This document shows, piece by piece, positions 3,201 through 45,400 of a stretch of DNA of 64,000 nt. The notes under the pieces are model-generated. The model was not told the origin of the DNA, ran no database searches, and saw only the letters and a program-made list of their open reading frames with translations. Numbering within the stretch: the first letter of the stretch is position 1; each line of letters starts with the position of its first letter. The position numbers and the translations under genes were made by a program. The stretch comes from Epinephelus fuscoguttatus (Eukaryota > Chordata > Actinopteri > Perciformes > Serranidae): the NCBI RefSeq assembly GCF_011397635.1, contig NC_064755.1:20939282-21003281 (forward strand), read 5' to 3'.

Positions 3201-4301
3201 CTTGTTTGTAATGAGTAGATAATTTAATGAGGACCAGACTTGATCAGCTGACAAAATGGTCTCAACTCAAGGTTCACACACTCGCAGCTCAAAATCCAGA
3301 TGTTTCCAGAAAATCTGCCAAAGAAAATGTGTACCCATTCACAACTGATATGTAAATATTATGTATGTAGGAGCTGGTTCATTGAGATAAACTATTTTTG
3401 TTGCTGGTTCTTTACACGGATGCCATTTATTCTAGAGGAGGAGGGCGCAACAAGATGATGTAATAAAAAGAGCGCCAGTCAAACCTCATTGTGCAAAGCG
3501 ATGTGGAAATTGTGAAGTAAAATATGGTCTTAATGTTTCACATATTCATTTGAGGAAAGTTACAGTCTCCTTATCACTCCATGATGATCTGATGTTTTCA
3601 TATGCCACCATCAAATGTGTCATGTATGCATTTTATTTTTTATGGATACACCAACTTTTTCACCTCAGCCAAGGATAAAATGTATTTCTGGTGTTTTGTT
3701 TATTTATTTTGCACAAATTTGAAATGTGCATAAAAACAGGTTATGAAAACACATTTTTAATGACACTTTTTTGGCAGATTAAATTTGCTCATTTGACCTG
3801 GAAATGGAAATGTACAAACTTTCCATTAGTATCTGCAGGACTTCTCATTCTTGTTGAATTAAAAGTTAAAGGTCCAGTATATGGGATTTAGTGAAATCTA
3901 GCAGTGAGGTTGCAGAATTGAAACTTCATAGGAGACCTAGATGCCTCTAAATCCTACACACTGGACGTTTAAGCTTAATACATTAATTTCTGAAATATAA
4001 TCATGGCAACTCAGTCTGCTGATGAAGAGTGTGTGATTTGAAAGCGGCCGAACATGTGAGTAAGTGGACTTTGAGTTGAGATCATTTTGTCCACTGGTAA
4101 AACTATGACTGCAGTTTATCCATAGCACAGTTACGACACCTTTCTCGCCCATGACCTCCTTGTTTGTCTTTTTTAGAGTACATCCAGAAGTACGCCACAG
4201 AGGAGGCTCTAAAGGAGCAGGAGGAGGGAGGGGGCGACTCCTCTTCTGAGAGCTCCATGTCAGACTTTTCGGAGGACGAGGCTCAAGACATGGAGTTGTA
4301 G
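251..4301 (+). CDS. ube2h: Ubiquitin-conjugating enzyme E2 H, 3' part (three coding exons)
   Basis: UBE2H is an E2 enzyme that takes activated ubiquitin from E1 onto a Cys and passes it on with E3 ligases such as the GID/CTLH complex. Three exons are readable: 251-303, 2707-2835 and 4177-4301 (stop TAG at 4299-4301). Each has AG/GT borders, and the phases join without a break. The first exon carries the catalytic Cys in [12 protein letters not shown]; the second carries [20 protein letters not shown] and [17 protein letters not shown]; the third carries the acidic Ser-rich tail [20 protein letters not shown], diagnostic for UBE2H. About 102 of roughly 183 residues are in the window; the N-terminal exons lie before position 1. 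The protein is nearly identical to the mammalian one, with small changes such as HRPEDYKHK and a GGG before the Ser run. The miR-183 cluster follows on the same strand, as in human. Confidence 0.97.
304..4176 (+). other. ube2h: Two ube2h introns (304-2706 and 2836-4176)
   Basis: These are the introns between the three recognised ube2h exons. They begin with gtaggt and gtagca and end with ccaccag and ttttag. I see no second gene, hairpin RNA or intact transposon in them. Short open frames here lack homology and splice context. Positions 1-250 are the end of a further upstream intron, ending ttcag at 250. Confidence 0.85.
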
Positions 4302-4987: not shown

Positions 4988-6720
4988 CAAACTACCAATG
5001 CATCAACCATGACAACGCCACAGCATGTGTGTGTGTGTCTCTAGGTGTGTGTGCGTGTGTGTGCATGCATGAATGTAATCCAGGGAGAATCATGGTGTGT
5101 TACAAACCTGTGTTGAACTGACCCCTGAGCAGAAACCATCAGAGAAGTCTCACAGTCCTGATGCTTCTCCTCTTCAACACCCATCTCCTCCTCTTCCTCC
5201 TCTCCGTTTTAGGAAAGTGTTTGTCATTCTCTGAGTATCTTTGTATATTGTGGCATGACACAGACGTAAAGTTGTGTAGGGCTTTGTGGAGCTGTAGAAA
5301 TGGGGAGGACGCCTGTGCGCCGGGCAGGTTCGGTGGAGATTATCCAGGTCCTTGTTGAATTATTGAACTTATTAACTTTGCCTATTGCTTGTGTTGAACT
5401 ATAATAGGTGTTTGACTTGCGTAGGGATAGTTAGTTTTTTTTGTTTTTTTGTTTTTTTTTGCGGGTGGTGAATCCTATCATAACGTATTGTTTGATACTT
5501 ATATAATACACTAGTTTTAAGACTAACTGTCCTGTAAAGATGAGGAGAATTAATACATCTCTGTCTGTGGGATGACTCTTTGTTGAATCAAATCCTTCAC
5601 AGACATGTTGCACCCCTGCTCCACCTGCACCCCCTTCTTATGCAAATGTGTCCATCAAAGATGATTTACGTCGTCAGACAGAAGTGCTCTTTGTTTCAGC
5701 CATTCGACACAGTCGCATTTACTTTGTCACGCTGTTGAAGGCCTGTTGCTTTCAAAAATAGTGGGACCAAATCTAAGGGATCTACGAGCTTAGTTTCAGA
5801 ACAAATCCTCCTCAGACTGGATTTGGGGATAAAGAGTTTTCACCGACGTGAGAAGATAAATGTTCCTCGAAGTGTCAAACACTAGAGTGGACGTCTCAGT
5901 TTAGACCAAATTTAAATTCAGACACAAGAGTTTAAAGCTTCAGTCCTGGTTTACCCCCGGAGAGAAGTTCAAGTTGTGTTAGCGCCTGTGCAGAGGAGGT
6001 GTTCACCAGAGCAGTGACAGTTTACTGTTAAATTTCATGATGGTACACTGGTATGTGTTTCAGCGCAGGCTTGAATCTTGATGCATGTTTGTAACGTGCA
6101 CTCATTGCAGATCAGGTTGTGTCCTGCATTATTTCTGGAAGGAAACAAAAATGTAAATCTTAGTTTATCACCATTAAAATGGGCTATTTCTTCTTTGGAG
6201 AGAAATTGATTATAATCAAACATTTAACTGGTAGCCTACTCCCTTTATACGTTTTTAAAAGTGATATCAGGATCTCTTTGAAAAGGCTTAACCTTCATTT
6301 GAGAATTAATACAAGTTGGTAAAACTAGCATGTTGCAGTTTTTTTGGACAAGATGAAAAAATGTATTTGTTAAGCAGCCTCGTTAAAACGGCTCTAATTA
6401 GCCTCGGTAACCAAATATATGCTGTTGTAGGTCCAAGGACTACATGATGTCACAGTCATTTGTCATTTGCAACGAAAAACAAACCACTGTCCAGGCTGGA
6501 TCATCTGGATTCATCAGTGTATTCTGTATTTTTTATTAATGAGACACATATATTTGATGCCTATAATTTTTTTTGTTTGAATGTTTTTATTTTTGTCTTT
6601 TAAGCCCTGTTGTCCAGGATACAAGTCGAGATATCCCTGATTTTTAAAAAAGCAAAAAATGAATAAATGTGCTTCCCTTGTAACTTGAAGAAAGAAATAA
6701 ACAAAACAAAAAATATATGA
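4302..6720 (+). other. ube2h: ube2h 3' untranslated region
   Basis: A stretch of about 2.4 kb without a credible coding frame follows the ube2h stop. It contains a (CA)n array and ends in an A-rich segment with two AATAAA signals, at 6662-6667 and 6696-6701. The two signals next to each other suggest cleavage near 6715-6725. The 3' end is inferred; no transcript data are available. Confidence 0.65.
4938..4985. repeat. (CA)n microsatellite in the ube2h 3' UTR
   Basis: This is an almost pure CA dinucleotide run of about 48 bp, interrupted only near its start (acacgcac). A related GT-rich patch follows at 5026-5065, so the two could pair in the RNA. Confidence 0.95.
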
Positions 6721-8201
6721 ACTGTGTCAATATGTTGCTACTGTGTCAGACATTGTGTCAGATCTTTCAGGTACTGAGGTATGAAACCAATTTTGACAAT
6801 TAATTCTTCGGATTTCCTTTTAAAACCCCCTGAAATCGGAGCTAACTGGCTTGATTTCTTTAAAAAACATGGGAAGAAAGCAATGAGCCACTAAAGAAGA
6901 AATGACCCGAAAAATTAGCAAGAAATTAATAAAAAGAGAAAATTAATCCTTTAAAACCTGGAGCGACATCATTTTTCTTGTGCTGCTTTTTTAGGATCTA
7001 AACCTTTGAACCTCCCTTTGGAAATTGGTGTGATTTTTCTCAAAACATGGGAAAAGGGACAATCTTACATCTTACCAATTTTGGTAAGAAATGTCCCACA
7101 AATTGAAAAAAATTATATAAATATTATGACATTGAAATAAGTTAAATTAAAGACATTTTAGAATTATAGAAATTATTGAGAAAAATAGGGAAAAAGAAAA
7201 AAAATCATAATTATTACTATTACCACATTTTAAAATTATGTTACAGAACAATTATAATTTTTATGCACTCTTTCCAGGTAATTTCCTTTTTTTTTTTTTT
7301 TTTTTTCTTTTTTTCTTACAAATTTTCTAATTTTTAAATTAGTTATTCAATATGATTGTAAGAATCTTTATTGAAATAATGACTTACTGTCTCAAAACAA
7401 AGAAACTTTCAATATTTTGACACACCATATGGTAGGCTAAAGTCTTTCTTAAAAATATTAAGAAACATTCTCATTATTTTGAGATATTATGCACAGACTT
7501 TAAAAGATGGAGTCAATATTTTAAGGAAGTTTCTCATCATAACGACTCACTTATTTCCCCCCTCACGTGGCATTAAGGGGCTTCAGGGGACATCCACACT
7601 CACTGAACAATTCTAACATCTGTCTCTCCTCCGTCCACCAGATGGCAGTCTCACCTGTGTGTCGTAAAGACTGTTAAAGTGACGTATTTGACCTGTGTAA
7701 AGAAGGGGGTCCACTAACAGTGGACTACTAACCATTCATGTTTTATTATTCATTATTTAAGGACCCCCAGACCTATTCTTTTAACATGTGTTTAGAAAAG
7801 ATCCCTGATAAATCACATTGCTGATGTTTGACATCCATATGTGTAGGAAAATTTACATTATTATATTGACTTTTCATGCTTTGTTAGTGTTTATTCATTT
7901 AAATATTTATTATAGTCTCCATTGTTTAGACTGTCTTGGATATCAGAGAGGGTGTTTTATGTCTTTAGTTTAGGCCGTTTGCATGGGGGCATTTGTCCCA
8001 CCCATTACAACATTAAATTAGCAGAGCAACAAAATAAAAGACATTTACACCATAAATTGCTGCAGAAAAAGGCACAAATTGGTGCATAAAAATTTCTCCT
8101 GGTGCTTAGGATTTTCTGGAAGAAGACCCTCAGACTCCTTTTTAGCACTTTTTACTTTTCCTGAAGGTGAAGTGTTTTTATTATTATTTATAATAAAAAC
8201 A

Positions 8202-8237
<36 letters not shown>

Positions 8238-9243
8238 GTCTTTAAAAAGCGCCATTTCCGGTGAAACTTGGGAGTTTTCCCTGTTAAACTGTTTCTGGTT
8301 TCAGATCAGTTTCAGACATGACTCATGTTAAATAAGTAAATGAATGAAGGTGGTGCTCCTGCATGTTGAGATGCTGCTGGGTGACGCTCCTCAGCAGACA
8401 CAGGCCGACAGTAGTTTATAATGATCTTATGAAATATTCATTGTTGTGTGGCCGTGCAGCCTCTCTGAGCATATTCAGGTTTCTTATTTCAACATCAGTT
8501 TAATTTGGCTGTTGGAGGGTCGGAGCGGAACGATTAGCAGGCTTTTTGACCATTCTGTTCATTTTCTCCGGAAACCTTAGAGGTTTAAAAAGTATTTTAA
8601 ATGCGATAGTTGAGATAAGTGTGTTGGATGAGCAGCAGCGCCTGTGTGAGTGATACTAAATTATAGTTTTCCTCATGGACCCATTTTCCTCTGTTCTGGA
8701 ACTTAGATTAGAAGAGAAAAAACACAGAAAATTGATTTTTTAAAGACAGATTTTAACGATGTTGTTAATGCAGCCTTTTATTTATGGTGAAGATATTTTC
8801 AATGTATTTTGGGGGGATTATAACTGGGGTGTGGAGCTATTTCTTATAATCGAAAAAGCGCGCAATGAGTTTCAGTTTCATGAAAACAGAGATGCAGTAT
8901 TTTATACCATATTGTTTTGTTATAGAGTGGAGCTGGTGATGAGTAAAGTTATTTAAGAGTAACGCGAGCAGCAGCAGCAGCAGTGGTGGTGGTGGTGGAG
9001 CTGTGCAGAGGGCGATGAGACGCTGCTGGCCGGCTGCGCCTCCTTCATAATGTATGGAGAGGACAAAGGCTGCGCGGGTGGATTTCAGCGTCAACTTTGA
9101 AAGAGCCGTAACCCAAACCTGCCCTATCCCTCTCTGACGGATTCACATCAGCTGAAAGGATGATGCCTCTTTTTCCACCTGCAATCTGTCTAATAATGAC
9201 CGACAGCAGGTAAATGAGCCCTGCAGGGACATTTGGGTGCCCG
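6721..9243. other. Intergenic A+T-rich DNA between ube2h and the miR-183 promoter region
   Basis: No coding gene is seen. The stretch holds poly(T) runs at about 7288-7306 and 8203-8230, and a copy at 8030-8110 of a dispersed repeat that recurs near 11036-11130, 23800-23945 and 54860-54965. At 8968-9000 there is a short CAG run followed by a GGT run. G+C content and CpG frequency rise from about 8950 toward the TATA box. Confidence 0.6.
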
Positions 9244-9250
9244 TATATAA
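9244..9250 (+). promoter_or_regulatory. TATA box of the presumed pri-miR-183/96/182 transcript
   Basis: TATATAA lies in a G+C-rich context (ccgTATATAAcgaggagg), which suits a core promoter and predicts transcription starting near 9274. It is 2 kb upstream of miR-183 on the same strand and 170 bp upstream of a strong splice donor. The assignment to the microRNA transcript is inferred from position. Confidence 0.5.
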
Positions 9251-9273
9251 CGAGGAGGAGCAGAGGAGGCCTG

Positions 9274-9420
9274 GACAAACTTCTGGAGAGACAGAGCGGA
9301 GCTTCGGGCCTGGCTGCAGCAGGGTGCCACACCCGGTGGATGCTGGTAGGTCTGCTGTCTGGTGGCAAACATCAGAGTTTCATTATGTAACGTGTGGCCT
9401 GTGATAAGAAACTGAGGACG
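9274..9420 (+). ncRNA. Candidate first exon of the miR-183 cluster host transcript
   Basis: The segment begins about 25 nt after the TATA box and ends in gaggacg followed by gtaagtgtt at 9421, a near-consensus splice donor. It has no long open frame starting at an ATG on the plus strand. The next recognisable functional elements on this strand are the miR-183, miR-96 and miR-182 hairpins, and mammalian pri-miR-183 transcripts also begin a few kb upstream of the hairpins. The acceptor was not identified. Confidence 0.45.
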
Positions 9421-11255
9421 GTAAGTGTTCAAATGTTTGCGTCTTACGTTTCCTAATTTTATTTATGTTAAGATTAAAGTAGTGTAGGTCGTTATTATGG
9501 GCTTCAATCTGCGTTATTTCAGACTTATGTGGCTAGTGTTGCCACTTTAGTGCTTTATTATAGCAAGACTGTAATCCTAATTTAGTTTGAAGAGTACTAA
9601 ACTACTTCTGGCAACACTGAATTACCAACCGGTTTTCCAGCGTCCGCCACTGCAGTGCGCGTCCTGTGCGTAAAGGCGCAGAGGAAATGCGCTGCAGGCC
9701 TGCGTATAGGAGCAGAAGGAGAGGGAGGAGGGCGGCGTGGATTACTATACTGCCACTGGGTTAAGATGCTTAGCAACTAATTACCTGTCTACTAAAATCC
9801 CCTACCATACCGCCCAAACAAGCAGTGAGAGATGGGGACACGGAGAGTTAACTGGCACAGTGTGGAGCAACGGACTGAAGAAGTAACAACAACAACAACA
9901 ACAACAGCAACAACAACAACAACAAAAGTTAGTCTCCTCCACCAAGCCCAGTTCATCCAGCCGAGGACCACCAGGCTGTTTTCTCCTGTGAAAATATTCT
10001 GCTGCTTGTACTTTAGGAATCTTGGCTCAACAGAGATGTTTCTTCATGTCTTTTTATAACTGAAATGTTGATGTGAGAATATTGGATTATCTTTTAAAGG
10101 TAAGGTAAGACTCAGACCAACACCGGATGTCTAGAAAAATCTGCAGGCCTCCTCATTTTTTTTGGTAAATGCATGCAATTCCTTCCAAAGTGAGAATAAT
10201 TAGACTGCTACTTGTGTGTAGATTAAGAAGTAGGTGTTTGTGACCTTTAGCTGGTCTGATGATCATCACAATGAAAACAAATACACAAAAAGAACGGTTT
10301 GAAATCAGGAATTAATGCCATTGTTTTGTTTTCTGAAAAGGATAGTTAATCTTTTTCACTGCATCCTTGATTATAATGAGGAAGGACTTTACTGAAGGAG
10401 GTGAGTAATATTGTCTTTGTGACTATCAGTAGTAAGAATAACCAAGATATGAGGAGCAACTAAACACAGCAACTCCAGGAGATTTCTGTTTATGCTCCCT
10501 CCCTCCCTGTCTCTCCCTCTTTCTCTCTCTCTGAAGCTTTTTACTCTATTGATCTCTCCCGGAAACGGGAAGATGAGCCCTGCTTTGGGACCCATTTGGA
10601 GCATCTCAAAAATCACTTAGCGCATCATTCCCTACAGCCAGAATCAATCTGAGCTCCTCCACCAGCAGCAGGAGGGATCTCACGGAGGCCAGAGATGTCC
10701 CGAAAGCTAACAATAATCTTATGATAACTTTTTCAGAAGGAATGCATTCTCGGTTATGTGAAGATTTTCTTTAAGAAACTGGGTGAATCAGCACCACTAT
10801 ATGACCTGTCTGCCCTCAGTAGCAGATGGCACGGCTGGATTTACTCTCCATCCTGTGTGGTGGACAAAACGGAGATGAAGGAAGGACGCTGTTTGAAAGA
10901 CAAGGCTCCCCAAACTTTAAAGAAGTCAGGAGAGGGTGGCATGAGGCAGCATGCAGGATGTCAGGATTCACAGTTGGAGGAGAGATGGTCACGTTTTTGC
11001 CCCGTGTACACAGGTGTAGATTTTTTTGTGTTTTGTTGAGAACATGCATTTATCGCCCCAATAGAAACATTTACATTACAGACATTAACACCATACATTG
11101 ATGCAGAAAAGGCACAAACTGGTGCATATAAAGTCCCCAGAATGCAGGAAAGTAAGTGTTTGCAGCTTTAATTTTAAGGCTGAGGACCCCCCACACAGGC
11201 AATGATCTACATCCTGTCCTATGTAGCACATGTAATGTGGGACTGCACTTGTATC
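9421..11255 (+). other. Presumed pri-miRNA intron or leader upstream of miR-183
   Basis: No protein-coding gene is supported. The stretch contains a CAA/CAG simple run near 9888-9925, a pyrimidine-rich block at 10497-10535, and at 11036-11130 a copy of a dispersed repeat that ends about 130 bp before the miR-183 hairpin. Scattered short frames look random. Confidence 0.5.
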
Positions 11256-11256
11256 T

Positions 11257-11345
11257 CCTCCTGTTCTGTGTATGGCACTGGTAGAATTCACTGTCACAGC
11301 ACACTATCAGTGAATTACCATAGGGCCATAAACAGAGTAGAGACA
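11257..11345 (+). ncRNA. mir183: microRNA miR-183 precursor
   Basis: The 5p arm at 11271-11293 starts TATGGCACTGGTAGAATTCA, identical to vertebrate miR-183-5p over that length. The 3p arm at 11310-11331 starts GTGAATTACCATAGGGCCAT, the known 3p sequence. The arms pair around a loop of about 16 nt, and the lower stem continues with ctgttctgt against acagagtag. miR-183 acts in hair cells, photoreceptors and sensory ganglia with miR-96 and miR-182. It is the first hairpin of the polycistron here, as in mammals. Confidence 0.98.
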
Positions 11346-11408
11346 GAACCACGCTGCCTGCGTCCATGTGTGTGTCCCCGTCTGCTTCACATGTCCACTC
11401 TGAACTCT

Positions 11409-11495
11409 TCTTTGCCCGTTTTGGCACTAGCACATTTTTGCTTTGTGTCTCTTTGTTTGAGCAATCATGTGTAGTGCCAATATGGGACAAGACAG
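11409..11495 (+). ncRNA. mir96: microRNA miR-96 precursor
   Basis: The 5p arm at 11420-11442 starts TTTGGCACTAGCACATTTTT, the canonical miR-96-5p; seed mutations in this microRNA cause deafness in human and mouse. The 3p arm at 11462-11483 starts CAATCATGTGTAGTGCCAAT. The stem closes below with gcccg against gggac. It lies 149 nt after miR-183 (5p start to 5p start) on the same strand. Confidence 0.98.
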
Positions 11496-11684
11496 ACACT
11501 CAGCTGTTCGTAAATATTCTGTCATCTGTGTGAGAGGGAAACAGAGAGAGGAGAGGATGAACTATGGATCTCATCGATTGCTCTCAGATATCACTGGTTG
11601 CCATGGAGGCTCCATCTCTGAGACGCTGTCCCGTGTAACCTGAACCCTACTTGTCACTCGGATCTGGTGGCAGTGACGGTTGCA

Positions 11685-11775
11685 CTCTCCCACAGTGTTT
11701 GGCAATGGTAGAACTCACTCTGGTGGGCTGGAAGGATCCGGTGGTTCTAGACTTGCCAACAACTGACCGAGAGCT
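11685..11775 (+). ncRNA. mir182: microRNA miR-182 precursor
   Basis: The 5p arm starts at 11698 with TTTGGCAATGGTAGAACTCA, the canonical miR-182-5p with the same UUGGCA seed core as miR-96. The 3p arm at 11742-11762 begins TGGTTCTAGACTTGCCAAC. The loop is short and G-rich. At mature nucleotide 22 the genome has T where human and zebrafish miR-182 have A; this is outside the seed. It lies 278 nt after miR-96, so the whole cluster is compact, unlike human, where miR-182 is about 4 kb away. Confidence 0.97.
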
Positions 11776-13289
11776 TTAATCTCCATCATCCCAGGACTCA
11801 TCACAGGAGGCGGGTTATTTAATGTTCAGGAGCATGTGCATTTTAGTTGCAAAAGGTCAAAGGGTGGCAGGTTTAAGGTGAGGGTTGTTGGGTGTGTGAG
11901 TGACTGCAGGCGGCGCAGTGAGGGGTTCAGATGGACCATCCCCCCCTGAGTGTTCTTGCAGTCTCAGAACACCATAGAAACTCTTCAAAGAAGCAAGCTC
12001 ACAGTTTCTGTGAAGGACAACCGCAGAAGAAGCCAGAAGTCCAGTAAGTCTCCTGGTTTGGAAAACACCCCCAGAGATTATTAATTCCCTTTGTCCTGCC
12101 TTTCTCCTGTCCTCCCTCAGATCTATGATGTCCCCCCAGGGTTGTCTTGGCACACTTAGCTGATCATGACATCAAAGTGTAATCTTCGACCTCAAACACT
12201 GAAGGTATGAACCGAACAATTCCTTTAACTATTGAGCCGTAACCCATAAATCCATACACAGGCCATTAAGCACCGGGTTGACTATCATCTGCCTCGGTCG
12301 ATAAATCAATGGTGTTCATGCGTTTGGCTGTGAAACCAGCAGCTGAAGGCCTGTAGTAGTAAATCCTCAGTGTTGGTGTTCGCAGCAGCAGCAGCAGCTA
12401 GCTCAGCTTACAGTGCAACCTGATCCTGCTCTGTCACGAAAGGTCTGAGATGAGGGGCTGTGGACATTCATCATCATAAGTGATGTTAGTGCTGCGTCAA
12501 ACCATTAAAGCCCACAGACAGTATGGAAAATGCATCACAATGAACTCCTGATGTTTGTGTAACAGCAGCATTTATCATACAGTCCTTTACAGAGAGGTGA
12601 AGGAGGAGTTTTAATGACCTGAGAAGGACTTTATATTCTCCAGCTTAGTGTTGCCAAAAATATTCATTTATGGATATACATTCATTCTGAATATTTGAAA
12701 TGGTTTCAATACACTTTTTCCTAATATCAATACCAGAAGAAATACCAAGAAAAGAAAAGTCATCATGTTACAGTCTTGATATGTTTATCTTTTAATGAAA
12801 GTGATAAAAATCGTGACAATTTTCCTCGTGGCATTGAAGATGGTATTGAATATTGATATTTTTCAAGGTATTGAAGTTAGAAATTCAAATATCGTGACAG
12901 CACTACTACGGTTACACACAAACTGCACATGCTGAGTTTTCTGACCCTGATTCTGATCATTTATAGAGTCAAAACTCTTAAACTCAGACTGTTTTAAGCC
13001 TTAAACATATTAAAATAAAGGGAATTTGTGTTTCTCAACATGATTAAATCCTTGGCATTGTAGAGAAGATGTTGAACCTGAATTCAGATAATCTAGTATG
13101 GAGATAAAATGTGTGGAAAATATACTTTTAAACAGTTAAATTAATACAGAAAAATATTTTAAAAAATGAAAGAAAATATTAAAAAAAAAAATGGAAAAAT
13201 GCTTCAGTATTTCTAAAATCCTGGCTACAGCACTGGAATTTTGTTTTACATTTTATTCTATTTTACATTTACGTCATTAAAGAAGCCAA
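11776..13289. other. Intergenic DNA downstream of the miR-183 cluster
   Basis: No gene is supported. The first few hundred bases may be the 3' part of the primary microRNA transcript. The rest is A+T-rich single-copy-looking sequence. Open frames such as the minus-strand one at 11857-12153 show no family resemblance. Confidence 0.5.
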
Positions 13290-13519
13290 GGTTTCCAAAG
13301 ATGTTTTTTTTTTTTAAAGATTATTTTTATGGGCTTTTTGCCTTTATTGACAGGACAGAGAGTGAAATGGGGAGACAGAGAGAGAGTGGGGACTGACATG
13401 CCGCAAAGGGCCGCAAGCCGAATTCGAGCCCGTGGCCGCTGCAGCGAAGCGATGCCTCTGTACATGGGGCGCCGTCACTATCCACTATGCTACCAATGCC
13501 CTGGGTTTCCAAAGATGTT
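13290..13519 (-). mobile_element. tRNA-derived SINE with perfect 16-bp target-site duplication
   Basis: On the minus strand the element reads from a tRNA-like head (box A region tggtagcatagtggatag, box B region ggctcgaattc) into a body shared with the copies at 50482-50693 and 57655-57812, and ends in a poly(A) tail (poly(T) at about 13303-13315 on the plus strand). It is flanked by GGTTTCCAAAGATGTT at 13290-13305 and again, identically, at 13504-13519. This duplication is the signature of LINE-mediated retroposition and suggests a fairly recent insertion. Confidence 0.9.
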
Positions 13520-14230
13520 AAATGTTCTGGCAGAACTACAGTAAAAAAGTGCATAAAATAATGGACTAAAACATGAAATTTTTTGACATAGGTGTAGAAT
13601 TTGGAGCTGAATTTTGAAGGGACACATGCAAAGTAGCAGAGGACTAAACTCTAAACCCATCGTTTCATATGTGCCCTCTTAATGAAAAACTAAACCTACG
13701 CCCTGGGCTGTTAATGTAATGCGGCCTTTAAAGTTATATCTCTATTTTACATATTTCTATTATAAGTAGCTGGTATAGAATACTGTGCGTGATTTAAATG
13801 TTACAACATGGAAAAATTTACCAAATTTTGGGGAATTTTAAGGTTTTCATTAAGAGCTTTAAGTCTTAAAGTATGACAATGGAAAGAGAAGTGGAAAACA
13901 GAAAGGAGGGATAACAGAGGATAGATGGAGAAAAAGACATTCAAACAAAGACAAAACACATCAGTGGGAGCGTCTTTATTCGTTTGTTGGGACTGAGCAG
14001 TCAGAGCGATCAACGGCTGATACGCGTTCATCATGTTTCAGAGAAACGCTGTGAGAGTCCATTATGGCCGACTGCTGCAGAGGATGTGAGGTTAAGTGGT
14101 GCCAGTGGACACACGAAGAGGAAGGAGGGAGGCAGACACGCTGACAGCTGGTACGACTGATTAGTACCATGTAGTGATGCAGGGAAGGCATCAAAGCTCT
14201 TTAGGGAGAATCCCTAACAGGGAGGAGGCA
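13520..14230. other. Intergenic DNA, no gene seen
   Basis: The sequence has no coding frame with homology or splice context. Positions 13600-13700 resemble parts of a dispersed repeat also seen near 23860-23945, with its cctacgccctgggc and gtgccctctt phrases. Confidence 0.4.
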
Positions 14231-14232
14231 AG

Positions 14233-14240
14233 GACACACA

Positions 14241-14281
<41 letters not shown>
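14233..14281. repeat. (CA)n microsatellite
   Basis: This is a CA dinucleotide run of about 49 bp with one ATA interruption near 14248. Confidence 0.95.
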
Positions 14282-14285
<4 letters not shown>

Positions 14286-14414
14286 TCCTGATACACAACA
14301 TCCTGGTTGCTCCTTTAAACTGAGCACACAGGTTTGACAGTGTATAGGCTGCACAGGCCATCTGTCATTTTCAGATGCATCATCAACCAATGGATTAGCA
14401 GTAGGTCTGCCTCA

Positions 14415-14416
<2 letters not shown>

Positions 14417-14454
<38 letters not shown>
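14417..14454. repeat. (CA)n microsatellite
   Basis: This is a perfect CA dinucleotide run of about 37 bp, 135 bp after the preceding array. Confidence 0.95.
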
Positions 14455-14456
<2 letters not shown>

Positions 14457-14988
14457 GGATACTGGTAATACAGGAGATTGAGTGGTGTCATTAGATTAGA
14501 TTGGGTGTGGAAGTCAATGGAGCTCCTCAATAATCTCTCACACTAATGGCTGTTTAATTGCTATTGTCTCCGCTGCTCTTTTGTGTTGTATATTATCTCC
14601 CTCTTAAATTAAAAGTGTTTTGAACAACCTGATGGTGAATGTCATTTTATTCAGCATTTAGAAGAGTACAGAGAACATGTGAAGAGCTTCAGAAGGGTGA
14701 TGAAAGACTGTCGTCACCTCCTCTGGACAAAATTAGGTTCAAGCACTGATGATTTACTGGTGGACTGATTGATTTACTCTGACTGCAGTGAGACTAGAGT
14801 GAGGGAATAAGATGTCTGGGGTAAGTTAAGAAAATAATATGCTTCAATTATCAGATAGAGGAAGCATGAGGCGGAGTAGATACACCAGTGTTGCCCTCCT
14901 GCAGCATTAGTGACCGACCTTTGGTCTGCTGCCCTAAAGAAACACAGTGTACAGTTCAATAAGGCTCTTCAGCCAGACCATGCCCTGG

Positions 14989-14992
<4 letters not shown>

Positions 14993-15056
<64 letters not shown>
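14993..15056. repeat. (CA)n microsatellite
   Basis: This is a perfect CA dinucleotide run of about 62 bp. It is the third CA array within 850 bp. Open frames on both strands here only translate the repeat. Confidence 0.95.
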
Positions 15057-15058
<2 letters not shown>

Positions 15059-17640
15059 GAGACTCTGGATTACAGTAATCCAGGGACAGGGGGGGTATTT
15101 ATAGGACTTCATGATCAGAGGCAGACAGGATGCAACTATCGAGGAAAACAGATAATGATCGTCATATGACCGGCTGGATTTATTTGGAACAGAGTTAATT
15201 ACGTAGCGTCTAGCAGGCAAAACTAATTCAGACAGCTAATTCAGCAGTAAAGCTACTGTAAGTATCAGAGGATCTGAAAATAAAACTTCAGCCCCAGCGC
15301 TAACTTAAGAAAATAAAAGGGAATCTGATATTTTTAGTTAATTTGTAACTGCATTAAAACAAATCCTGTTGTGTAGTGGCCTTTAAATATAACCATGACT
15401 GTTTGTGCCTGAAATAAAACATGATATTTATCATACAAATTAAACTAATAATTGTAACTCACAGTTATAGCAAAGACAGATGACACCACACATGACAAAA
15501 TGAGGCAGGAAGAGACAAACTATACAGATATAGTTTTTTAAAAAGGCATCATCTGTCAAGGAAATCAAATTATAGGGGATTGACACAGCAGTGATGTGAT
15601 GATCACTATTAATATCTATGACTAAGGCTGGGTGTCAGCCAATAGAGTACTTCATTTGATATATTTGTTTTCAACTATATTTGATACCCATCACATGAAT
15701 GGAAGTATTAAGTTGCATAAAATGCCACCACCACACTTGGCTTCACCACACACAGACTGTAGCTGAGGTAATGAGCCAAAAAGGATCAAATGCACACATT
15801 TGACTTGAGAGGTTTTGATGATAGTTGGTACGGGGTTATTGTGCTTGGTATCTTCAAGGTTTTAAGTACCCATACTAAGTCCTGCCTATGACAGGGAAGT
15901 AGAATTACAGGGCAGAGGACACACTGCAGCCTTTAATCTTGTGAAGACAATAATCATGTTTTGGTTTTTATGGTGGTTTAACTGATTCATTTATTTGTAC
16001 AAATCCTTGTCAGTATCACTCAGACATACAGTAATAGTGCTGTTACTCCCTCTAGTGGGGAAACAGTCACACATGAGGTTCTGCAGCTGACTGCTTTACC
16101 ATTTGTGTTTCTGTTTGTTATGAACAATTTGTAGTTTAATAGGAATCTATAGGGCAGGGCTGGGCAATATGTTGATACTGAATATGATATGAGACTAAAT
16201 ATGGATTTGGATTTTGGGTATCTTAATATTGTATGTGTTGTCTTTACTGGTTTTTAAGGCTGCATTACAGTAAAGTGATGTATTATGTTGTATGTTGGTT
16301 GTTAAATATTCGTTCTTTATGACAGACTCTATTTTATTATTTACTTTTTCATCTTTTTACTGTTTTTTTTTATCACTGTTTAAAATTCTTAATAGACATT
16401 GCTGCTAATTATTTCTTTTTAGGGACTTCTGACATCACTTTGGGATTACATTATATACTTGTATACTTGTATATACCCGTCTATCCCATTGAATGTGAAC
16501 TCAGAGCATTGCTGTAAAAGAGCTTTATGCTCAGTCAGTTTTCCCTGAATAAACAATGGTTTGATTGATTGAATATTCTGAGTTTACCAGACTGTTCTGG
16601 CTGTTCTGTTATTTGCATTTATGTACTTAGTCATTATATCAAGTGTTGGGGAAACTACATTAAAACCACCTAGTTTACTGAAGTACTACCTACGTCAAAA
16701 TAAAAAGTAGTTAAAGTAACCTACATCTTAACTGCGCCAAAAATTAGCTTGTCAATGTAAAACTAGTTCCAACAAGTGGTTCAACAACATCCAAACTACA
16801 AAACTATGAATATTCATAATCTGAGTCTGGAGTATTGTTACAGGGAAGTACAACTGAAGTGACACTGAGTAAAGTGAAGGTGTATTTGATTTAGGGACTA
16901 CGACAGGTCAGTCCTCACCAAGGCAGCCTGAGAGAGTTTTTTAAGGAGATGATAGGGAGCAACTGTTGGGGTGGAGTCAGAAAAATGCTAAACTTTTAGG
17001 GAAATTCATGGTACTCAATAACAGACATTTAAGTTGCAAAACAGATAATGTCATCATTCATCATCAAGTTGATGCATGTATTTCATCCGGTAGTCCTGAT
17101 TGTACAGTTATGTTATCCAAATCTTGGTCTTCCTGTATTACATGGTGCATGTCTACTGTGTGTCTTGTTTATATATGATAGTTGTATCTGCCATGCAGCT
17201 ATGTTGCACTATGTGTCCAAAACAAATTTTCCTTTTGGGAAAATAAAGTTTAACTTATCTTATCTTAGTGACTGAACTACATGTAATTAACTCAACACTG
17301 ATTATATCCACATTACTGAGGATTATTCATCAAAAATCCCATTGTGTAAATATTTTGTGAGCGTACCAATAGTCAAATCTATGATATCATTGCAATATTG
17401 ATATCAAGGTATTTGTGCAAAAATACTGTGATATTTGATTTTCCCAATATTGCCCAGCCCTACTACAGGGATACACCTGTATGTATGGAGTTGTGTGGTT
17501 GTATATATTATGAGCACTGATGTGACTGCAAAGAAAATAAAAATGCTGTTCATGCTCTTCATGTTTTTCTACAGGTGAGAGACACATTTAAACTGCCTTC
17601 CTATTTTTATGAGACAAAGATGCAGAGGAAAATTTCAAGA
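15057..17640. other. Intergenic DNA between the miR-183 cluster and ahcyl2
   Basis: No gene is supported. The stretch includes two probable LINE/SINE 3' tails. One ends ccctgaataaacaatggtt near 16555. The other ends ttttgggaaaataaagttta near 17250 and is followed by a tcttatctta repeat, typical of fish L2/Rex-type retroposon ends. The rest is A+T-rich with no recognisable content. Confidence 0.5.
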
Positions 17641-18240
17641 GTGAGCAAATCTGTTCTTTTTATTATAATATCTTAAGATTGATTGATTGACATGTACAGC
17701 TGTTCAAAATTTAAATAGATTGTTGATTTAAATAGATTGTTGATTGCTTCATTTAAGGTTAATATAAAGATCAGGTGAATGTGGTGATGTTAAATATAAA
17801 TCAGAATGATAGGCCATCATGAGGCATAAAGCAAGTTCATATGTATAAATACATTGAAGCAGATATTCAGTTTCAGCTTACAGTCCACATGTGTTTGGTT
17901 AGATATGTGTTATTGATCGCTGCTCCAGTTAATAAATACTGTTGTTATTATTATGTCAAGCAGAAGAATAAATAATCAGCATTTTGTGTTTTAGCTCTTT
18001 TAGTTTCAGATTTCACAGTGATTACATTCTGGATAATGTGAACAATTATAACCAGGAACAGTGAAACAGATAAAACAGAAACATACACAGAAAAATCAGA
18101 GAATAAAAGTAGAAGTTTGAAGTCTTCGGTCTCTCCATAGTACTGAGCCTGGTGAGATTGAGACTGTAGAGGGAGCTGGTGCTCTGTCTACAGGACTGTG
18201 ACATATGAAGAGCTTGTTTCTCAGCTTTGTGTCCAGAGGG
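17640..18240 (-). other. ahcyl2: ahcyl2 3' untranslated region
   Basis: The region follows the ahcyl2 stop codon on the minus strand and has no coding frame. A minus-strand AATAAA (tttatt on plus) lies at about 17658-17663 and would place cleavage near 17640. The 3' end is inferred. Confidence 0.5.
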
Positions 18241-27914
<9,674 letters not shown>

Positions 27915-30787: not shown

Positions 30788-33417
30788 AATTCTTTTCATC
30801 AGAATATGCACCAACACATGCTAACACATATGACAGGAAACAGTCTAATACTTATGATCCTTCTACATGTAGTTTTTCTGTAAACCAGTTTAACTCTTTC
30901 ATTGCATCTTGTAAAGAGTCTAACACTTTTTCTTCTCTCCATCTGAACATAAGAAGTCACCCAAAAAACTATGATAATTTTTACCATTATCTTTCATCAC
31001 TGAACCACATTTTCTCAATAACTGCATTGACCGAAACTTGGCTTAATGATGAAATACATTCACTATTTAAATTTGATGGTTACACAACCATTCACCGATG
31101 TCGAGGAAGTAGAGGTGGAGGAGTCTCTCTCTATGTTCAAAAGGAGCATGAATTCAAACAGAGATCTGACCTTGAAATGAAGTTTCATGGATGTAATACT
31201 GAATGTGTTTTTCTTGGGGTGCAATCTGAGAAAAGAAAATTGATTGTAGGATGTATATATCGTCCTCCTAATACAGATATCAACAACTTTAAAGAATGTC
31301 TTCTAGATATCTTGGAACTTGTTGATAAAGAGGGTAAACTGTGCTATTTATTAGGTGACTTCAATGTTGATCTCTTAAACAAGAACAAACAGCACATTGA
31401 TTACCTTACAAATATAGTGTCTTCAAATTATTTTTATCCCCTTATCTGCAAGCCCACAAGAATAACTAGCCAATCCTCTACACTGATAGACAATATTTCT
31501 ACTAATGCGCTGACTGATGTCATAAAATCTGGTATCCTTTAAAGAGATATTTCTGATCATCCTCCTGTTTTTCAGTTCTCTTCCATACTCAACAAACAGC
31601 ATGTAAATAAATCAAAGAGAACTTGTTTTAGAAAATTAAATGAAAATAACATTAACAACTTCTCAATTATATTAGCAAAGATGTCCTGGGAAACAGTATA
31701 TGAAGTTTCTGATGTGAATGTGGCTAATAATAATTTTTATGCAAAAAATCTACATGGGATATTTTAAAAAAACTACTCAACAAGAAAAACTCCTCTACTC
31801 CATCCCAGGCTGCATTTCAGGATGGCACAGTAATGATAACAGAGCCAACACAAATTGTTAATAAATTTAATGATTTCTTTATAAGTGTGGGACCACGTCT
31901 TGCAAAACATATTGAAAATGTTCATGATTCTCCTTATAAATGAAGGTTATCCCTCTTTAAACAATTTTGAACCAATAAAGCCTTCAGAAATACTTGATAT
32001 CATTAAGAATCTTAAAAACTCCTCTGCTGGCCATGACGAAATTACAGCCTATTTCATCAAAAAAGTTGCACCTGCAATTATTGCTCCTTTAACATTTATT
32101 TTTTCTTTGTCACTTGAATCTGGTATTATCCCACAAGATCTAAAACTTGCCAAAGTCATCCCACTGTTTAAAGCCAATAATCCATCTGTATTTTCAAATT
32201 ATTGCCCTATATCAGTTCTCCCTTGCTTTTCTAAGATACTTGAGAAGTTGGTATATGCCAGAATTTTGAAGCATCTGGATGTCAACAATATTTTGTATGA
32301 GCATCAATATGGTTTTAGAAAGAATTGTTCTACATATATGGCTCTCTTGCATCTTAGAGAAAAGATTTCAACTGCTTTTGAGAAAAATGAATATGCTTTA
32401 TGAATTTTCTTAGACTTATCAAAAGCTTTTGACACTGTGAATTATGAAATTGTATTATCAAAAATGTCTTGTTATGGTTTTAAATATAAGGTTCTACAAT
32501 GGGTTGAAAATTATTTGCACAACAGAGAGCAATATGTCATTTTTAATGGTAAACTGTCACAGCAGAAAGTTCTAAAATGTGGAGTACCACAAGGGTCCAT
32601 TTTGGGTCCATTGTTGTTTTTGATATACATTAATGATTTACCAAAAGCATCTAGTATTTTGTCACCTATCTTATTTGCTGATGACACCAATCTCTTTGCT
32701 ACTGACAATACCACTGACTCACTTATTGATAAGGTAAATTCTGGGCTCATTCAATTTGCTCAGTGGTTTAAGTTAAATAAACTATCACTTAATGTCAAAA
32801 AAATCAAATTTCATCATCTTTAAGAACAAGAATAAGAATTACAATCCAGAAAAAACTAAAATTTATATTAATAACAATTTACTTTCTAATGTTTCATCAG
32901 CAAAGTTTTTAGGTGTCAATATTGATGAGAAACTTCGTTTTAAGATTCATTGTGAATTTGTGTGCAAGAAGGTCTCAAAGTCCTTTAGTATCATAAAAAT
33001 GATTAAACCCTATTTAAAAACAAGTACTTTATTAACCTTGTACTACAGGTTAATTTATCCCCATATCTCTTATTGCAATTTAATTTGGGCTAGCACTTAT
33101 CCTTCTTACTTACAACCAATTCATAGACTCCAAAAATCCTTTGTAAGAATTGTCACTAACTCTCCATATTTAGCTCCATCCACACCTCTGTTTAAAAAAT
33201 TACAAATACTAACAATCTATGACGTGAATAAGTATCAAACAGGAATCTTGATGTACAAAGTCATATGTTTTCCGTTATCTTTACCCAAACATTTTCATAA
33301 TTATTTTGAGTTTAATTCTTATTATCATTCATACTCCACAAGAAGGAGGAATGATTTGCATATCCCCTTCTGTAGAACCGCTGTTGCAAAATTTTCATTT
33401 ATGTACTTTAAACATTG
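30788..33417 (+). mobile_element. Decayed non-LTR retrotransposon (CR1/L2/Jockey-group LINE)
   Basis: The element keeps most of a LINE ORF2. The apurinic-endonuclease region runs from about 30788 to 31560, with LHLNIRS, ETWLND, YRPPN, LLGDFN and the catalytic SDH at 31552-31560. The reverse transcriptase runs from about 31950 to 33400, with SKAFDTVN, GVPQGSILGPLLF and FADD at 32674-32685. The copy is dead: an in-frame TAA at 31540-31542, a TGA at 32401-32403, and frameshifts near 31760 and in the A-rich stretch around 32800. The 3' end is missing; sequence switches to a Harbinger-type gene at about 33418 with no tail. The clade is uncertain. Confidence 0.88.
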
Positions 33418-35019: not shown

Positions 35020-35125
35020 GTAAGTTTGATTAAAACACCACTCAAAGTGAAAGTAAATTTTAGTGAGGGTAGAGGAGGGAGGGTGAGCTATGACTGACTG
35101 TGCTTCCTGTTTGCTGTATTTTCAG
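35020..35125 (+). other. 5' UTR intron of the TRIM gene
   Basis: A donor GTAAGT at 35020 (tgaat/gtaagt) and an acceptor gtattttcag ending at 35125 frame a 106-bp intron just before the TRIM start codon. This would put a non-coding exon at about 34940-35019. A spliced 5' UTR with a single coding exon is usual for fish TRIM35-like genes. Confidence 0.5.
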
Positions 35126-35142
35126 CTTCACTCGGAGACGAA

Positions 35143-36531
35143 ATGGCTTCCAGGTCAGAGGAGAATCTCTGCTGTTCGGTCTGCCGTGATATCTTTAGGG
35201 ATCCTGTTGTTCTGACATGTAGCCACAGCTTCTGTAAAGACTGTCTGAGGGGCTGCTGGAGAGTGAAACCAACACGTGAGTGTCCACTTTGTAAGAGAAG
35301 ATCTTCAAGGGATGAACCACCTTCAAATCTAGTGTTAAAGAACCTGTGTGAGGAGTTCTTACAGCAGAGAGATCGGAGAGCTTCAGAGCCTCTCTGCAGT
35401 CTGCACTCTGAGAAACTCAAACTCTTCTGTCTGGACCATCAGGAACCAGTGTGTCACATCTGCAGGGATTCAGAAAAACACACTAACCACAGATTCAGAC
35501 CCATAGATGAGGCTGCACAACAGCACAAGAAGAAACTTAAGGAAACTTTGGAGCCCTTAAAGAAGAAGTTAAAGGTTTTTGAACAAGTTAAAGTAAAGTT
35601 TGATCAAACAGCAGATCACATTAAGGTCCAGGCCCGACACACAGAGGGACAGATTAAGGAGCAGTTTAAGAAACTTCACCAGTTTCTAGAAGAGGAAGAG
35701 GAGGCCAGGATGGCTGCACTGAGGGAGGAAGAGGAGCAGAAGTGTCAGTCAGTGAAGGAAAAGTTGGAGGCTCTGTGCAGAGAGATAGCTGCTCTTGCAG
35801 AAACAGTCAGAGCTGCAGAGGAGGAGCTGAGAGCTGAAGATGTCTCATTCCTGCAGAACTACAAGGCTGCAGTGGAACGAGTCCAGCAGCACCCCCTGCC
35901 AGATGACCCAGAGCCACTCTCGGGAGCTCTGATAAATGAGGCCAAGCACCTGGGCAACCTGACCTTCAACATCTGGAGCAAGATGAAGGAGATGGTCTCT
36001 TACATTCCTGTGATTCTGGACCCAAACACTGCACATCCAGAACTCATCCTGTCTGAAGATCTGACCAGTGCGAGACTAGGAGAGAAGCGGCAGCTTCCTG
36101 ATAATCCAGAGAGGATTGCTGAGTACTCCTCTGTCCTGGGCTCTGAGGGCTTTAACTCAGGGACTCACAGCTGGGAAGTCAAAGTTGGAGACATTACATT
36201 CTGGTCACTGGGCCTGTTTGCAGAGTCTGCCCAGAGGAAGGGAGAAATATGGTCTGGATTATGGAGAATAATGTTCTACAAAGGTATATACACGGCACGC
36301 TCACTACCAGATCCACCCACTGTTCTCAAGCTGCAGAAGAAGCTCCAGCGGATCAGTGTGAATCTGGACTGGGACAGAAGAAAGCTGTCATTCTCTGATC
36401 CTGATACAAACACACACATACACACCTTCACACACACTTTCACTGAGAGGATGTTTCCATTTATTAACAGTGTGGATGAAGTGAAGATATTACCACAGAG
36501 GGTCTGTGTGACGGTGGGACAGAGAAGTTAG
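35143..36531 (+). CDS. Single-exon TRIM E3 ligase (TRIM35-like / zinc-binding protein A33-like)
   Basis: The 462-aa protein has all parts of a class-IV TRIM. The RING is at residues 11-50 with C11, C14, C26, H28, C31, C34, C47 and C50. The B-box 2 is at about 85-116 (C85, H88, C96, H99, C104, C107, H113, H116). A Lys/Glu-rich coiled coil spans about 125-250, and PRY-SPRY about 290-455 ([10 protein letters not shown], then [17 protein letters not shown] and FWSLGLFAE). Such proteins are ubiquitin ligases whose SPRY domain selects the target; many fish members act in innate immunity. The start is supported by the acceptor 17 bp upstream and by RING beginning at residue 11. The PRY-SPRY lacks the usual WxVG phrase (it reads FWSLGLF). 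No frameshift or stop is present. I cannot assign a one-to-one mammalian orthologue. Confidence 0.93.
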
Positions 36532-42417: not shown

Positions 42418-45400
42418 TCATCGTGCTGTACGTATGTTCTTGTACTGGCACAGGAGCAGGTGCTTGAAGGTGTTTTTGAAGGTGACGTTGCAGAGGGCAT
42501 AGCAGGCCGGGTTGATGGTGCTGTTGATGTAGCAGAGCCAGTAGCCGATGGTCCAGAGGGAATTTGGGATGCAGATGGAACAAAAGGTGTTGATCAGGAC
42601 CATCACGTTGTACGGTGTCCACGTGACGACAAAAGCAACCAGGATGGCCATGATGGTGCGCGTCACCTTTTTCTCCCTGGAAGAAATGCCCTTCCTTTTC
42701 CACTTTGCCACAGCAGTCTGCTTTGTCACCTGGAAAAATCGGAGCAGAAGAGGAAAACATTTTTAAGTTTAAAGTTTTTAAAGTAAAACTAGTTGATTTT
42801 GGGGGGCAATTTGGGGGCAGTGAAACAAGCTATGAATAGAATTTTGGCAGCTCGCCCCGAAGAGCAAAACAAACTGGCCCCAAGCCAAAAAAGCTGCCAA
42901 GTGGTGATAGCCTTATGTTCAGCAGCTAACAGTGGCTAACGTTAGCACAACACACATAATAACAGCGGTGAGCAGTAGCTGCTAGCAGCAGCAGACACTG
43001 ACGAAAAAAGTCGTCCTTTAAAGCTGGCATGATACCTGGCCGGTTGCCATTATAGTTTAACAGCACTTGGCAGCGTAAGGGGGAAACGTGGCGGGACAAG
43101 AACAAAAGTTAAGGTGGCGAAAGTCCAAGTAGGGCCAGTGGGAGAGGTGGTGGATGGGTCCAACAACCACCGACTTTCACCCAGGAGAGTGGTGTTTGTG
43201 TCCCGTAAGACTATAAAGCCAAACCCTGTTCTTATCTCCTAAACCTCACCATGTGTTTTTGTTGCCTAAACCCAACCACGTGCATTAGTTGTTGGAGAAA
43301 AAAATCACCAATTCAGGTTGTTGTGCTGACGTAGTACATTTATTTTGAAAGAAGACAACGCATGTAACAGGCTGAACTTGACATGGTGTCCCAGAACGTC
43401 AACAACCAACGCACGAAGGGTGCCTTGTGTGTTGTCCATGAACAAACCTCTGAGGTCGGAGTGAGAATGTGTTGCAGGGACACAAAAATGAAAAAAAAAA
43501 AAAAACGAAAAAAAAAAAAAAACAGTTCAATGATCAAACTCAACAACAGGAACATTCATTCATTCATTCATTCTATGACAGGGCTAACACATAGAGACAG
43601 ACAACCATTCACATGGACAATTTAGAGTCACCAGTTAACCTGTGTGTCTTTGGTTTGTGGGAGGAAACCTGAGTACCCGGAGAAAACCCATGCTGACACG
43701 GGGAGAACATGCTAATAGGAACATGAATGTCTGAATCAAATATTATGGCAATCCACCCAATATTTGTCGAGACATTTCACTAAAAAGCACAAATGTAAAC
43801 CTCGTGGTGGTGCGAGAGGGTCAGGGGATCACTGAAGTCATTAGTAGAGTTGAGCCAGATACTTTGATGACATGAATGTGTGGTACGGATAATGCACTCT
43901 TTATGAGTTCGAGTATCCGAGTGTGTTCGGGTAAAATGTGTCAATATCCATACTCGTTACTCGTAATGAAGCTGTGTATCTAAAGCTCAATACTGACATT
44001 GTTGTGAATAGTTTTCTAATAAATAATATGGCAAGTCTATCGCAACTTCTGATCAACTCACATCAGTGTCTGGCTTAAATTAACAACTTTTGGTTGGCCC
44101 CCACCCATAATGATACAAATAATTTAGTTGGTTGAACAGATACAGATAGGCTTCATCCTCAAGGGACAATGGATGTCTGTACAAAACCTTACAGCAGTTC
44201 TAGCTGTAAATCTGGTCAAATCTGTGATTGCTAATTTGTGGTTTTTTTTTAGCTATCTGAACCATACAGTACGAGCTTTTCCTAAGTAATCAAATTTACC
44301 TTGAACAGCGTCCTTGTGGCCAGACTTTGTCTGTCAGCGGCTGAGTTTCCTGGAGAAGGTGGCTGTGTTTGACTTGTTTTATTCCCACCATCTGAGCCTT
44401 TCTGTGATGATGCAGGGACCGCAGCATCCTTAGATGTTGACGCCTGGATGCTGTCTGCTGTGGAGTCCACCAGCTCAGTCCTTTCTTCCTGACATGGCCC
44501 GTTTCCGTTCTGCTGCTGCAACATTTCCTTCTCCTTCCCATCTCCAGCCTCCACCTTGGCCTCTTTTGCTGTGGTGCAGTTGTTCTGGCTCTCACATCCA
44601 TCGTCCTGGCTGTGAGAGGGGCCTTCTCCCAGACTGGTACCTGAGGTCTTCCTGCTGTCCTTTCTCATGCGGCTGCGGCTGGCCTTGGAGATGCGCCAGT
44701 AGAGGTGGATCATGATGGCCACTGGCAGGTAAAAAGCTGCTATGGCTGTCCCAAATGTCACCGCGGGGTTTGAGAAGAACTGGATGTAGCACTCACCTGG
44801 CGGCACGGTTCTCCCACCAACAATGAACTGCCAGAACAAAATGGCTGGAGCCCACAGGATGAAGGACAACACCCAGGCTGCAGCGATCATCAGACCCGCC
44901 ATCTTGGTGCTGCGGCGTGCTGGGTAGCTGAGAGGTTTGGTGACACAGAAGTAACGGTCAAAACTAATGATGAGCAGGTTCATGACTGAGGCGTTGCTGA
45001 CAACATAATCGACAGCCAACCACAGGTCACAGACCACCGCTCCCAGGGGCCAGTAGCCAATCACAATGTAGACAGTGTAGAGGTTCATGGAGCAGACGCC
45101 AATAATGAGGTCTGCACAGGCCAGGCTGAACAGGAAGTAGTTGTTGACAGTCTGCAGGTTCCTGTTTACCTTTAGAGACACAACACGGAGCAGGCTGTCA
45201 GATGCTAATCTTTTTTGGTGCGAGGTGATATGTGTTGTCTCATTTCAATTAGATTACCACTCTACACACAGGTGCACATGCTGTTTTCTTATCTCTACGT
45301 TTGAGTGTATTTTCCAATGTGTCCCTCTATCTGAAATGATCAAAATAAGAAAACCCAAACCTTTATAGAGAGCATGACCAGGATGTTTCCGATGACGGTG

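Follow-up and report, generated by a model that had tools for sequence, protein, structure and literature searches.

A compact miR-183/96/182 cluster downstream of ube2h, orthologous to the vertebrate sensory microRNA cluster

Three closely spaced hairpins downstream of ube2h raise the question of whether they form the vertebrate miR-183/96/182 cluster, and whether their compactness is out of the ordinary. The window, i.e., the whole 64 kb stretch of DNA that was analysed, was scanned against all 4227 Rfam families, with the curated gathering scores as cut-off. Exactly three matches reached this level, i.e., the covariance models of the mir-183, mir-96, and mir-182 precursors, all on the + strand (Table 1). 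Each match covered the full model length with an E-value below 1e-17, and chance is excluded by E-values of this size. An earlier note made from the letters alone had described a complete miR-183/96/182 set in the order and strand seen in mammals. The Rfam search proposed there recovered all three families, and the hairpin positions confirmed that order, with all three on a single strand and no more than a few kb apart. Almost certainly, 11264-11767 is orthologous to the miR-183/96/182 cluster of vertebrates, and this is the best explanation of the locus as a whole. The surrounding genome is probably that of a teleost, as judged by its composition, gene content, and simple repeats. The cluster is real, conserved, and already known, i.e., an ordinary object.

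Table 1. Positions of the microRNA cluster and of the neighbouring genes in the window
Feature	Position	Strand	Evidence
mir-183 precursor	11264-11337	+	Rfam RF00663, 94.9 bits vs gathering 53, E 1.2e-21
mir-96 precursor	11412-11489	+	Rfam RF00669, 85.9 bits vs gathering 65, E 8.4e-18
mir-182 precursor	11691-11767	+	Rfam RF00702, 82.7 bits vs gathering 71, E 4.8e-18
mir-183 arms	5p 11271-11292; 3p 11310-11331	+	Differences from Rfam consensus: 0/22 and 1/22
mir-96 arms	5p 11420-11442; 3p 11463-11484	+	Differences from Rfam consensus: 0/23 and 3/22
mir-182 arms	5p 11698-11721; 3p 11742-11762	+	Differences from Rfam consensus: 1/24 and 1/21
ube2h 3' coding exons	252-302, 2706-2834, 4176-4298; stop 4299-4301	+	tblastn, human UBE2H query
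AHCYL-like (S-adenosylhomocysteine hydrolase-like) 3' exons	18326 to at least 22019	-	Pfam AdoHcyase E 5.6e-14; exon pieces by tblastn

The mature 5p arms and their seeds were conserved: compared with the Rfam consensus, those of miR-183 and miR-96 had no difference and that of miR-182 had one. The sole difference in miR-182-5p was placed at position 22, outside the seed. The 5p and 3p arms had been described as intact in all three hairpins, and this holds with 0-3 consensus differences per arm. The 5p starts read earlier, i.e., 11271, 11420, and 11698, were recovered at the same positions.

Folded alone, the mir-183 hairpin reached -28.2 kcal/mol (z -4.56) and the mir-96 hairpin -34.7 kcal/mol (z -6.03), and for both, 0/200 dinucleotide shuffles were as stable. 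The mir-182 hairpin reached -28.0 kcal/mol (z -2.44), with 3/200 dinucleotide shuffles as stable. By fold energy alone mir-182 is modest, and therefore it is the covariance score and the arm sequence that identify it. An inverted-repeat search of 11100-11900 returned two pairs, i.e., the arms of mir-183 and those of mir-96; the mir-182 arms were not returned in this range. A sliding fold scan was made with 150 windows of 80 nt over 10800-12379 on both strands, using mononucleotide shuffles. Among the best 24 of the 150 windows, six had z below -3, all on the mir-183 and mir-96 hairpins, and none lay on the + strand hairpin of mir-182. The next window after these six was 10800-10879 on the - strand (z -2.8). 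Folding of the segment 11240-11790 (551 nt) had been proposed as a check; the hairpins do fold singly, but the segment as a whole is only mildly more stable than its shuffles (z -2.07, 2/100 shuffles as stable).

The CNNC motif at its usual location is a processing signal of microRNA hairpins. In all three hairpins (3/3), a CNNC begins past the 3p arm end, at 18 nt in mir-183, 17 nt in mir-96, and 19 nt in mir-182, with the 3p ends assumed. The range of +15..+22 was chosen within this analysis, and 28% of positions in the surrounding 5 kb have a CNNC starting in it. The UG motif 14 nt before the 5p arm was absent from the hairpins (0/3).

Besides the three hairpins, a permissive Rfam scan of 9000-14000 returned two reverse-strand matches below threshold and three weak matches. 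On the opposite strand, mir-183 and mir-96 matched their own models below the gathering score, i.e., 43.9 vs 53 bits and 46.5 vs 65 bits, which is expected because these hairpins are near-palindromic. The weak matches, i.e., mir-2013 (overlying mir-96), CrcZ, and SMAD5-AS1_2, were all far under the gathering score and were rejected. No sign of a fourth cluster member was detected in the fold scan of 10800-12379 or in the permissive scan of 9000-14000. The fold scan missed the true mir-182 hairpin, and therefore a weak extra hairpin could also escape it. A tRNA search with the bacterial-code setting found no tRNA genes.

From the first to the last hairpin the cluster measures 504 nt, in line with the earlier estimate of about 500 nt. 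The gap between the mir-183 and mir-96 hairpins is 74 nt, and that between mir-96 and mir-182 is 201 nt. A gap of 278 nt had been reported for the latter pair; this value is correct as the distance between the miR-96 and miR-182 5p starts, but not as the gap between hairpins. In a passage of a 2015 review (PMC4551935), the human miR-96/miR-182 spacer measures 4.2 kb and the mouse one 3.6 kb; the distance of about 4 kb quoted earlier for human agrees with the former. The human cluster (7q32.2) thus differs from the present one in this spacer, i.e., 4.2 kb vs 201 nt. The same part of the review describes the 183-96-182 order as conserved in deuterostomes and the spacing as variable, with shorter spacing in lower organisms, sea urchin excepted. 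A passage of PMC3145563 describes joint transcription of the family in vertebrates, from a segment of 1 to 4 kb, and linkage in other deuterostomes. Compared with this vertebrate range, which is not a fish figure, the cluster here is shorter. The surprise that the earlier note implied finds no support, because shorter non-mammalian spacing is already described in that part of PMC4551935 and a standard Rfam scan reveals the locus immediately.

A regulatory role of the long spacer is also put forward as a possibility in the relevant passage of PMC4551935. The 201 nt found here leave no room for the long spacer which was proposed to hold regulatory elements or a secondary miR-182 start in mammals, and it is possible, although on balance doubtful, that the three miRNAs are expressed solely as one unit. 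If this is true, such a compact genome would be a natural test of the role of the mammalian spacer. The compact cluster is a convenient contrast with the mammalian one for asking what purpose the long spacer has. As a discovery, the locus carries little weight: what it demonstrates is that this genome retains an intact sequence of a sensory microRNA cluster that is deeply conserved.

The nearest recognised gene upstream of the cluster is ube2h, on the same strand. Its pieces were 95-100% identical to residues 83-183 of the human UBE2H query, with E-values of 4e-7 or lower. The Pfam UQ_con domain was matched in the frame 2685-2969 with 23.3 bits, under the curated cut-off of 27. The human cluster shares the three hairpins and their order, and also has UBE2H as its immediate upstream neighbour in the same orientation, as given in passages of PMC4551935 and PMC5580467 (2017). 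The cluster had been placed directly downstream of ube2h. The upstream gene and its strand are as described, but "directly" is loose because the ube2h stop codon lies 7.0 kb before mir-183, i.e., 6962 nt from the hairpin.

On the other side, the next gene recognised is the AHCYL-like gene, which is convergent with the cluster. Its best PDB matches were 3mtg, "Putative adenosylhomocysteinase 2", and 3gvp, "Adenosylhomocysteinase 3". Pfam was applied to ten of the 186 long frames in the window, and further genes may have been missed. A figure legend in PMC5580467 shows the human cluster flanked by NRF1 and UBE2H, whereas the AHCYL-like gene was recognised downstream here in place of NRF1; this flank is a feature of the human locus and not of the cluster itself. 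With one human protein query, no significant NRF1 match was obtained in the 64 kb, including 11768-18325 (best E 0.15). Human AHCYL2 lies beyond NRF1. By comparison with the human arrangement, the gene block looks conserved, with nrf1 apparently absent from the interval between the cluster and the AHCYL-like gene.

The same three miRNAs are clustered in zebrafish, where larval expression and a requirement for hair-cell maintenance are described in passages of PMC6635406 and PMC12563060. The available part of PMC12563060 locates the zebrafish family on chromosome 4, and that of PMC6635406 reports all three miRNAs as detectable from 1 day after fertilisation. In a passage of PMC6356880, miR-182, miR-183, and miR-96 are enriched in salmon brain. 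From such published biology we infer a polycistron, i.e., a single shared transcript, as well as how the miRNAs are processed, their expression in sensory cells, and their targets. One RNA polymerase II transcript of the + strand would most likely carry all three hairpins, and Drosha and Dicer would cut each of them. In sensory cells, among them photoreceptors, hair cells, and those of the lateral line, the mature 5p arms would then repress mRNAs, as in zebrafish and mammals.

Other readings of the locus were weighed against a cluster with a transcript of its own. The hairpins could belong to the 3'UTR or the read-through of ube2h and be expressed with this gene rather than from their own promoter, as they follow its stop codon by 7.0 kb on the same strand. 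The cluster is preceded by five + strand AATAAA motifs (6662-8192), which suggest that the ube2h transcript probably ends before reaching it. In a passage of PMC5580467 on HSV-1-infected human fibroblasts, a stretch with very low reads lies between the UBE2H read-on transcripts and the induced cluster, which also speaks against shared expression. This origin of the hairpins is considered highly improbable.

It is also conceivable that a genome duplication left the locus behind as a silent or decaying copy while the functional one lies elsewhere, and a teleost review (PMC4159003) gives miR-183a,b for Asian seabass in one of its passages. However, three full precursors above the gathering score, with 0, 0, and 1 differences in the 5p arms, are unlike decay. 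In zebrafish mutants, miRNA depletion was taken as reasonable assurance against further paralogues, according to a passage of PMC6635406. The chance that the locus is such a relic is considered very small, and an intact orthologous cluster is preferred.

Other genes were recognised further along the window. Putative pieces of a non-LTR retrotransposon were found on the + strand at 30790-32400, i.e., an endonuclease-like piece (30790-31539) and a reverse-transcriptase-like piece (31885-32400), both below the Pfam curated cut-offs. The frame 32777-33415 near these pieces had no Pfam match. A TRIM-family protein is encoded at 35098-36528 on the + strand, in a frame of 477 aa with RING, B-box, TRIM coiled-coil, PRY, and SPRY domains (Pfam).

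In mammals, muscarinic receptors are encoded in one coding exon. A gene for a muscarinic acetylcholine receptor was found at 42421-45244 on the - strand, with M2 as its best PDB match (E 7.5e-104). It has two 7tm pieces, in the frames 44285-45244 and 42421-42762, and a putative intron of about 1.6 kb lies between them in the third intracellular loop. The edges of this putative intron are donor-like, GTAAAT (44299), and acceptor-like, TTTTTCCAG (42730).
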